Shown here in pieces: positions 24,780 to 27,708 of a stretch of DNA of 64,000 nt. Below the pieces are notes generated by a model. That model did not search any database. It was given only the letters and a program-made list of their open reading frames with translations, and was not told where the DNA came from. Both the position numbers and the translations under genes were made by a program. Source of the DNA: Hyphomicrobium sp. (GTDB lineage Bacteria > Pseudomonadota > Alphaproteobacteria > Rhizobiales > Hyphomicrobiaceae); contig NZ_JAIETU010000002.1 in NCBI RefSeq assembly GCF_019744875.1, positions 1,116,001 through 1,180,000 of the forward strand, given 5' to 3'. Position 1 is the first letter of the stretch, and each line of letters opens with the position of its first letter.

Positions 24780-25316
24780 CTAGAGATCCGCGAGCAGATC
24801 CACCGCGTGTGTGTGCGGCGGGTGGACGGGATAGATCGCTCTCTCAATCCGGCCATCGCGCGCAATGAGCGTCAGGCGCTTGAGATATGTCACGCCGCCG
24901 GTCTCGAAGGACGGCAGGCGCAGGGCATCGCGAAGCGCGCCTGACGCATCCGACAGCAACGGAAACGGCAGCGCCATGCGCGCGGCGAACTCCTGCTGAT
25001 CGGCGGGGCTCTGTCCGCTGATGCCGAGAACGCCGACGCCTGCGGCGCGGTATCTCTCGTGATGATCGCGAAAGCCTTCCGCCTCGGGCGTCGATCCATG
25101 CGCGCCGGAGATGTGATCCCAATCGGGTGGATTGGAGAGGCCCGTACGGCCGGTCCACGGATAGACGAACACGACCCAGCGGCCGGGCAACTGCGCGAGA
25201 CTGATCACGCCGCCCGACGTTTCGGAGAGCGCGATGTCGGGCAATGCGAAACCCGATACGAGGTGCGCCGCGGCGCCATCATCAACGGGTGCGGGATAGG
25301 GCCACGGCGTGCTCAT
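24780..25316 (-). CDS. peroxiredoxin-like protein without cysteines
   Basis: A 178-residue thioredoxin-fold protein of the AhpC/TSA type that contains no cysteine at all. The peroxidatic position, GCTPHAC in its neighbour, reads GSTPEAE here, so both the catalytic and the second cysteine are lost. The rest of the fold is kept: LPDIALSETSGG, VVFVYPWTGRTG, VLGISGQSPADQQEFAARMALPFPLLSD and LIARDGRIERAIYPVHPP. It overlaps the upstream paralogue by 4 bases (ATGA), so both are co-translated. It cannot act by the usual thiol mechanism; a binding or partner role is inferred. Confidence 0.82.
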   Translation of the reverse strand: MSTPWPYPAPVDDGAAAHLVSGFALPDIALSETSGGVISLAQLPGRWVVFVYPWTGRTGLSNPPDWDHISGAHGSTPEAEGFRDHHERYRAAGVGVLGISGQSPADQQEFAARMALPFPLLSDASGALRDALRLPSFETGGVTYLKRLTLIARDGRIERAIYPVHPPHTHAVDLLADL

Positions 25317-25888
25317 GCCGGATGCGCCTTCAGCCAGGCGAGCACATCGCCCGCGTTCCGATCCGGCGGAAACACGGGGTAGAACACGTGCTCAATCGCG
25401 CCATCGCGCACGATGAGCGCCAAGCGCTTGATCATCGTCTTGCCGCCCACCTCCATGGCCGGCAAGTCGAGGGCGCGTGTCAGGCTGAGGCTCGCATCGG
25501 ACAGCAGTGCAAACGGGAGGTGAAGGCGGCCCGCTGCTTCGCGCTGCTCGCTCTCCGTGTGCGTCGAGAAACCGAACACGAAGGCGGCGCCGGCCCGGCT
25601 CAGATCCTGGTGCAGATCGCGGAAGGCGCAGGCATGCGGTGTGCAACCGCGCGCGCCGGGAATTGCATCCCAGCCGTCCGGCAGCGCCCGGCCCGGCGTT
25701 CCCGTCATCGGATAGGCGAACACCACCGTGCGTCCGGCGAGCCGCGCAAGGTTGATCGCGGCGCCGCTGGTTGCCGCCAACTCCAGATCGGGAAGCGCGC
25801 GCCCGGGAAGGTGGCGCGCCGCGCCGTCGTCTTCGGGCACGGGAAGCGTCGACCAATCCACGTCGTGGAGGGCGCGATCACCCGCCAT
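25313..25888 (-). CDS. peroxiredoxin (AhpC/TSA family)
   Basis: A 191-residue peroxiredoxin-like protein. The start MAGDRALHDVDWSTLP is 5 bases after the smpB stop and follows gaggccg; the track's extra 16 residues run into smpB. The active-site segment is ARGCTPHACAFRDLHQDL, with the peroxidatic Cys followed four residues later by a second Cys that may act as the resolving one. The usual PxxxT/S-x-x-C spacing is changed by a longer loop, as in a subfamily with GCTP-x-x-C. It should reduce peroxides with a thiol donor. It overlaps its cysteine-free paralogue, and smpB is likely in the same transcript. Confidence 0.85.
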   Translation of the reverse strand: MAGDRALHDVDWSTLPVPEDDGAARHLPGRALPDLELAATSGAAINLARLAGRTVVFAYPMTGTPGRALPDGWDAIPGARGCTPHACAFRDLHQDLSRAGAAFVFGFSTHTESEQREAAGRLHLPFALLSDASLSLTRALDLPAMEVGGKTMIKRLALIVRDGAIEHVFYPVFPPDRNAGDVLAWLKAHPA

Positions 25889-25893
25889 CGGCC

Positions 25894-26373
25894 TCAGCCC
25901 TTTTCGCGCATGATGCGCGCCTTCTGGCGGTTCCAATCGCGCTTGGCGGCGGTTTCGCGCTTGTCATGCAGCTTCTTGCCTTCGGCGATCGCCAGCTTGA
26001 GCTTGGCGCGTCCGCGGGCGTTGAAATAAAGCTCCAGCGGCACGATCGTCATGCCCTTGCGCTCGACGGCCTGGAACAGCTTGGCAAGCTCGCTCTTGTG
26101 CAGCAGCAAGCGGCGCTTGCGGCGCGGCTCGTGCTGGAAAAAGCGGCCGGCATCCTGGAACTCGGGAATGTAGGCGTTGATCAGGCAGAAGCTGCCGTCG
26201 TCCTCGAACGAGGCGTAGCTCTCCGCGATGTTCGCCTGCCCCGTGCGCAAGCTCTTAACCTCGGTGCCCTTCAGCTCGATACCGGCTTCCCAGGTGTCCG
26301 TGATGAAGTACTCGTGGCGCGCTTTCCGGTTTTCGGAAATGATTTTGCGGCCGTCGTCCGTCTTGGCCGACAT
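25894..26373 (-). CDS. smpB: SsrA-binding protein SmpB
   Basis: SmpB binds tmRNA and brings it to stalled ribosomes (trans-translation). The family pattern is clear: [32 protein letters not shown], then [39 protein letters not shown] and the basic C-terminal tail [16 protein letters not shown] that enters the mRNA channel. 159 residues. It lies 21 bases downstream of dapA, a common alphaproteobacterial arrangement. I did not find the ssrA RNA itself in this window. Confidence 0.96.
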
Positions 26374-26394: not shown

Positions 26395-27285
26395 CTATTC
26401 GGCCGCGACCGCGTCCAGCAGCCCCACCTTCTTCAGGACGGCATCGACGACCTTGCGCGTCTGGTCGGTGACGGGCACGAGCGGCAGGCGCATGTCCGCC
26501 GTGCACAGGCCGAGGCGCGAGGCGGCATACTTGACGGGGCCCGGATTGGTGTCGACGAACATCGCGTCGAACAGCGGCACGAGGCGGTCCTGCAGCTTGA
26601 GCGCGGTGGCGAAATCGCCCTTCATGCAGGCGTTGTGCAGGTCGGCGCAGAGACGCGGGGCGATGTTGGACGCCACCGAAATGCAGCCGTGGCCGCCCTG
26701 GGCGATGAAGCCGAGTGCCGTCACGTCGTCGCCGGAGAGCTGATTGAATTCCGGCCCCATCGCCGCGCGCTGCTGGGAGATGCGCGCGAGATTGCCCGTC
26801 GCGTCCTTCACGCCGCACACGTTCTTGAGCTGGAACACGCGCGCCATGGTCTCGACGGACATGTCGACGTTGGTGCGGCCCGGAATATTGTAGATGACGA
26901 TCGGGATGCCGACCTTGTCGTTGATGGCCTTGAAGTGCTGGTAGAGGCCTTCCTGGTTCGGCTTGTTGTAGTAGGGATTGACGATCAGGATGCCGTCCGC
27001 GCCGATGCGCTCGGCATACGTGGACAGCTCGATCGCTTCATCGGTCGAGTTCGATCCGGTGCCGGCAATGACGGGAATCCGCCCGCGTGCCGTTTCGACC
27101 GTGATCTCGATCACGCGCTTATGCTCGTCGAAGTTCAAAGTGGGGCTTTCGCCGGTCGTGCCGGTCGGCACGAGGCCGTGGGTGCCCTCCGCGATCTGCC
27201 ATTCGACGAGCTTGCGCAGAGCCTCCTCGTCAAGCTGACCGTTCCTGAATGGCGTGATGAGCGCCGTAATGGAGCCTTTGAACAT
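26395..27285 (-). CDS. dapA: 4-hydroxy-tetrahydrodipicolinate synthase
   Basis: DapA condenses pyruvate with aspartate semialdehyde, the first committed step to diaminopimelate (cell wall) and lysine. Starting at [13 protein letters not shown] gives 296 residues, the usual length. Active-site parts are GTTGES (42-47), Tyr132 in [11 protein letters not shown] and the Schiff-base Lys160 in CGVKDATGN. The start follows gagagcgga. It probably leads a transcript dapA-smpB-peroxiredoxins. Confidence 0.95.
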
Positions 27286-27708
27286 TCCGCTCTCTCGATT
27301 CTCGAATTCGCGACGGGGCATGCGCCCGTCACCGCTACTTCAGCCCATAGTCTCCCGAGGCATAATCACGCCCCGTGATAGACTGGTCCGCCAGACACGC
27401 TCTACCCTCAGACACGCCCCAACTTCAGACGTCTCCAACTTCAGACAGTCTCGGGCCCGCGGACGGTCTCGGGGCACCTTGAACGCTCGCGCCCGAGTTT
27501 GTACCCTTCCGTTGGTCGTCCGTCTCGGCCTCGCGTCTCAATTGCGGCTGGGATGGTGGACATTATGCGCTCAGACGGCAGCCTGCAAGCCGACGCGGCG
27601 CTTTGACGAACCGGCTTTTCCGGCCAAGTAAAAAGACCCTTACACGGGCCGCAACGCCTGAAAATGTGGACTATTGCGGCCGGGCATCGGCCCGCAGCGA
27701 GGATACGC
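27286..27708. other. divergent promoter region between dapA and slt
   Basis: About 420 bases. It contains direct repeats such as ccaacttcagac (twice near 27419-27445) within a run of cagac-rich sequence. The minus-strand ORF 27441..27911 overlaps the beginning of slt and has shadow composition. No gene supported. Confidence 0.5.

Follow-up and report, generated by a model that had tools for sequence, protein, structure and literature searches.

A Cys-less peroxiredoxin-family protein under purifying selection in Hyphomicrobiaceae, often encoded without its Cys-containing paralogue

Peroxiredoxins are defined by one cysteine. The protein analyzed here, PrxS, has a serine in its place, and the described proteins that it most resembles are those of the PrxQ/BCP group (E. 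coli Bcp, X. campestris PrxQ with PDB entries 3gkm and 5io2, and B. ambifaria 5enu), with which it shares the fold (Foldseek E ~ 5e-12, TM 0.70/0.78) and, in the case of 5enu, detectable sequence similarity (E = 1e-10). Like these proteins, PrxS retains the catalytic Arg, and the residue at its peroxidatic position lies at the same point of the helix; unlike them, it has neither the peroxidatic nor the resolving Cys, carries an insertion of ~15 residues before the active-site helix that is common to its Cys paralogue, and has the class-specific residues His73, Ser75, Glu80 and His170. The same substitution, with retention of the fold, is found in laboratory Cys-to-Ser mutants (XcPrxQ C48S, 5io2; ApPrx C50S, 3a2w; PRDX5 C47S, 1urm), whereas the change in PrxS is natural, ancient and fixed, and is accompanied by Arg-to-His and Cys-to-Glu changes. 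We found no relevant paper on a Cys-less peroxiredoxin clade or a peroxiredoxin pseudoenzyme in the open literature, using phrases that were partly narrow and with subscription journals outside the search.

The gene lies in a window of 64,000 nt of Hyphomicrobium sp. DNA (contig NZ_JAIETU010000002.1), to which all coordinates below refer unless another contig or locus is named. The names prxC and prxS are working names coined for this analysis, and the names of the neighboring genes were read from their sequences rather than obtained by family search. The features are as follows.

24780..25316, minus strand: prxS, Cys-less peroxiredoxin-like protein of 178 aa with GAHGSTPEAE (ORF and translation)
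24876..24878, minus strand: prxS Arg147 codon, matching the PrxQ catalytic Arg in the alignment (5enu)
25077..25079, minus strand: prxS Glu80 codon, resolving Cys position; Glu is the commonest residue here in the Cys-less clade
25092..25094, minus strand: prxS Ser75 codon TCG, in place of the peroxidatic Cys; the active-site helix of the model begins here
25098..25100, minus strand: prxS His73 codon CAT, class-specific, the Cys clade having Arg at this position
25313..25316, minus strand: ATGA overlap of the prxC stop and prxS start, 4 bases (sequence)
25313..25888, minus strand: prxC, Cys-containing PrxQ-like paralogue of 191 aa with GARGCTPHAC (ORF and translation)
25628..25630, minus strand: prxC Cys87 codon TGC, putative resolving Cys of a C-x4-C motif, invariant in A3
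25643..25645, minus strand: prxC Cys82 codon TGC, peroxidatic position, invariant in A3
25894..26373, minus strand: smpB, ORF immediately upstream of prxC
26395..27321, minus strand: dapA, upstream of smpB, in conserved synteny

The initial annotation had described two adjacent, similar genes with a 4-base overlap, the first encoding GCTPHAC and the second GSTPEAE and no Cys at all, and the coordinates, overlap and motifs all proved correct for the window proteins; both genes are on the minus strand, and the overlap reads ATGA. The overlap makes translational coupling of prxC and prxS likely. In pairwise comparison PrxC and PrxS share 54% identity across 170 residues (E = 2e-54). Besides the insertion, PrxS has in common with the Cys paralogues (PrxC and the "PGARGCTPQSC" redoxins found in Alphaproteobacteria and some further Proteobacteria) the WD pair, Ser100/Gln102, Arg113, Ser122-Asp123 and Arg147; the Cys paralogues differ in having C/C and Arg where PrxS has S/E and His, and in their wider taxonomic spread.

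Both proteins scored above the curated Pfam cut-offs for AhpC-TSA and Redoxin (PrxS, 55 bits against 26 and 40 bits against 26.6, respectively; PrxC, 69 bits for Redoxin), and the top Foldseek matches of PrxS were all peroxiredoxins, placing it in the superfamily by homology and fold. It is not a PrxQ/BCP equivalog, as its scores were 48.6 bits against a cut-off of 260 for NCBIfam PrxQ and 35.7 against 140 for PRK09437, and it lacks the C-x4-C motif, the resolving position being Glu. PrxC, which keeps C-x4-C, also missed these two cut-offs (44 and 41 bits). A contiguous PxxxTxxC is absent from both proteins because the ~15-residue insertion interrupts the motif, which reads YPWTG(insertion)GAHGS in PrxS and YPMTG(insertion)GARGC in PrxC. 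With this broken motif and the missed PrxQ cut-offs, PrxC is best regarded as a putative peroxidase. In PrxS the catalytic Arg of peroxiredoxins is present as Arg147, and Ser75 stands at the N-terminus of the active-site helix, where a thiol peroxidase requires the peroxidatic Cys. Judged from its sequence, then, PrxS is a peroxiredoxin-family protein by homology and not a peroxiredoxin enzyme by its defining residue. The AlphaFold2 model of PrxS has the PrxQ fold (pLDDT 96, pTM 0.92; pLDDT 89 for PrxC), with an active-site helix (H75-84) that starts exactly at Ser75, and its best PDB matches were PrxQ/BCP proteins including XcPrxQ and the C48S mutant.

A search of 60 relatives revealed the Cys-less protein throughout the family, every motif reading GAHGSTP. 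We compared 87 distinct intact Cys-less sequences with 50 Cys-containing ones. The peroxidatic position is Ser in 87/87 of the former and Cys in 100% of the latter; the residue two positions before it is His in 87/87 versus Arg in 94%; the resolving position is Glu in 87%, Gln in 7% and Leu in 5%, versus Cys in 98%. Arg at the position of Arg147 is shared by both (99% and 96%), while conservation of His170, Phe137, Gly140 and Tyr144 is particular to the Cys-less clade. No Cys occurs at the peroxidatic or resolving position in any of the 87 Cys-less homologues, nor did we find a conserved alternative Cys among them, any column holding Cys in at most 8. Complete absence of Cys, seen in 44 of the 87, is thus a property of the window protein and not of the whole family. 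One contig scan had used patterns containing GAHGSTP, and we therefore re-measured conservation on a motif-independent set (45 Cys-less and 39 Cys sequences obtained from whole-protein or profile searches only). The class differences (H73/S75/E80 versus R/C/C) hold in this set, in which His73, Gly74, Ser75, Thr76 and Pro77 are all 100% conserved in the Cys-less sequences, and Gly71 and Ala72 98%. Among the Cys-form sequences, one (L121, G232:C102:6278-6778) combines the peroxidatic Cys with a Tyr in the resolving position (GCTPQNY), and may be a 1-Cys variant.

Pairwise dN/dS between close relatives (YN00) was 0.03-0.29 for the Cys-less sequences and 0.07-0.14 for the Cys clade. In the Cys-less sequences, 13 of the 24 invariant columns fall within 31 of the 178 residues (52-82, the loop and helix start; p = 8e-6). 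Mean entropy in this region of the motif-independent set was 0.57 bits, versus 1.55 elsewhere; the corresponding values for the Cys clade were 0.81 and 1.41 bits, although its taxonomically wider sample inflates entropy somewhat. This former active-site region is the best conserved stretch of the protein and is, if anything, constrained more tightly than in the Cys clade. In the PrxS clade, loss of the catalytic residue is fixed and combined with purifying selection, as in a pseudoenzyme.

In the unrooted tree, one branch separates Cys from Cys-less sequences (one change, SH-aLRT 96), and rooting with PrxQ placed the Cys-less sequences as a single clade nested within the Cys form with a support of 96, in a quick tree whose branch details are soft. 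These sequence trees indicate that the Cys-less subfamily is monophyletic and was derived once from a Cys-containing form. Recent tandem duplication or gene conversion was considered and ruled out, the Cys and Cys-less clades being separate. Among Alphaproteobacteria the Cys form has a wide but patchy distribution, and a few other Proteobacteria have it as well; all Cys-less sequences seen came from Hyphomicrobiaceae, f204 (Methyloceanibacter, Methyloligella) or a few unplaced bins. Three deeply diverged Cys-less homologues (L104, L106 and L108; 37-44% identity to the window PrxS) carry Leu at the resolving site, are still found immediately after smpB, and could help to root the subfamily. A GAHGSTPQSE copy at the base of the Cys-less clade (L093:6001-6510), from a bin labelled Burkholderiaceae (FW021_bin.27) and without dapA or smpB nearby, may reflect a mis-binned contig or horizontal transfer.

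The order dapA-smpB-[prxC]-prxS-(DUF3775-like)-uracil-DNA-glycosylase-like was observed in nearly all loci, with or without prxC, and smpB adjoins prxC or prxS in nearly all of them. This conserved slot spans Hyphomicrobiaceae and Methyloceanibacter/Methyloligella, and other families of the same order have only prxC in it, after smpB (L028, L120, L172, L174). The simplest history would be an smpB-prxC locus, followed by duplication and then by repeated loss of prxC with prxS kept. In one family genome without prxS, a Cys-form homologue has a single in-frame TAG (G022:C22:150985-151509), possibly a prxC that is on its way to being lost. Beyond the housekeeping genes dapA and smpB, the DUF3775-like ORF and the glycosylase-like ORF, the neighbors offered no functional clue; synteny is uninformative on the function of PrxS because the neighbors are housekeeping genes and the slot is ancestral to prxC.

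The presence of the two genes was scored over whole genomes in 93 members of the family (E <= 1e-20), separating prxS from prxC by profile score across an empty gap from 246 to 207 bits, a split consistent with the residues of those loci that were read. We found prxS in 68 genomes and prxC in 31, with both in 24, prxS only in 44 and prxC only in 7. One explanation of the Cys-less copy, that it is a decaying duplicate without function, would be in keeping with one homologue in metagenome bin AP_23 (L105:1879-2404), whose halves, at 1879-2133 and 2150-2404, are in different frames beside an intact prxC, a split due either to sequencing error or to rare real inactivation. Set against this single case are dN/dS values of around 0.1, the invariant HGSTP of 87 distinct and intact homologues, and a single old origin; dN/dS together with conservation rules out a recent, unconstrained decay product, and we give the decay explanation in general practically no credence. 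The proposal in the initial annotation of a pseudoenzyme rather than a decaying gene was thus borne out: dN/dS is far from 1, homologues occur family-wide rather than being absent from relatives, and the Cys-to-Ser change, with His two residues before it, and for the most part the Cys-to-Glu change are conserved in other genomes. Its further suggestion, that PrxS is kept beside the active paralogue as a heteromer partner or regulator, fared less well. All but one of the 24 genomes with both genes have them adjacent, prxC preceding prxS, often with start and stop overlapping or a few bases apart (in the remaining genome they are near the ends of two contigs), and across the 24 paired loci the aligned ends are 0-66 nt apart on the same strand and in the same order, as a partner or regulator of PrxC would predict. 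However, 44 of the 68 prxS genomes have no prxC, including the single-contig genomes G469, G470, G473 and G487; in the Methyloceanibacter-type f204 genomes both genes are present and unlinked; and the adjacent-partner state changed 12 times on the Cys-less tree, with at least 9 changes forced by supported branches. An obligate heteromer or prxC-specific regulator is therefore disfavored, and we regard a partner or regulator role as improbable, while an accessory interaction is possible where both proteins exist. Since prxS is usually kept where prxC has been lost, PrxS probably has an independent function and is not a broken or helper copy.

We favor, with a probability of roughly 0.55, the explanation that PrxS is a neofunctionalized pseudo-peroxiredoxin in which the conserved pocket serves for binding that involves no thiol chemistry. 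An ancestral smpB-prxC locus gave rise, once, to a second copy, which has lost both redox Cys residues (C to S and C to E/Q) and fixed Arg to His two residues before the peroxidatic site. Strong purifying selection acts on this copy, its fold, active-site loop and catalytic Arg are preserved, and it persists where the Cys copy is absent. Peroxide reduction by thiol chemistry would have been lost. The predicted pocket, whose positions come from the alignment and secondary structure, would consist of Ser75 at the helix N-terminus, Arg147, His73, Tyr52/Thr55, Trp66-Asp67 and Ser100/Gln102, and could bind a small ligand (a hydroperoxide, an oxyanion or a metabolite) or a peptide, so that PrxS, with no need of prxC, may be a sensor, a buffer or an adaptor. 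Peroxide is one candidate ligand because an engineered Cys-to-Ser peroxiredoxin can hold it, according to the title of PDB entry 3a2w (ApPrx C50S, peroxide-bound form). The ligand sensor role raised in the initial annotation comes close to this favored explanation; binding or sensing of a ligand is possible. A new enzyme or a protein-protein surface would leave the pocket just as conserved. Peroxiredoxin family members have redox-independent holdase functions, and PrxS, in a likely operon with the ribosome-rescue factor gene smpB, could be an adaptor, chaperone or structural protein that uses the fold as a dimerization or protein-binding surface, the old pocket being conserved for folding. We consider this unlikely, given that a purely structural role predicts relaxed conservation near the former Cys, where the loop is tighter than in the Cys clade, and that the position next to smpB goes back to the Cys copy. 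Among the more novel alternatives, the strongest is a new enzyme with non-redox catalysis, in which Ser75 with His73 or His170 would be catalytic and Arg147 would bind an oxyanion. The complete invariance of Ser75 and His73 and the constraint gained, not only lost, in the Cys-less clade at His170, Phe137, Gly140 and Tyr144 would fit such an enzyme; on the other hand, Foldseek and HMM searches returned peroxiredoxins only, Ser is an isosteric replacement of Cys, and we know of no Ser/His enzyme with a peroxiredoxin fold, all of which makes this alternative rather doubtful. Only tentatively would we go as far as to propose that the peroxiredoxin active site has become a non-redox site of another kind, catalytic or sensory (Ser75/His73/Arg147 with His170), and that its function matters enough for Hyphomicrobiaceae to have retained the Cys-less copy through repeated losses of the original peroxidase.

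An ancient natural clade that replaced its Cys and outlived the active paralogue many times would be a clean case of neofunctionalization, and the PrxS clade may serve as a test of what a peroxiredoxin pocket can do without thiol chemistry. Most of the Cys-less genes are presumably annotated just as peroxiredoxin or redoxin, and the antioxidant capacity ascribed to these methylotrophs may consequently be overstated.
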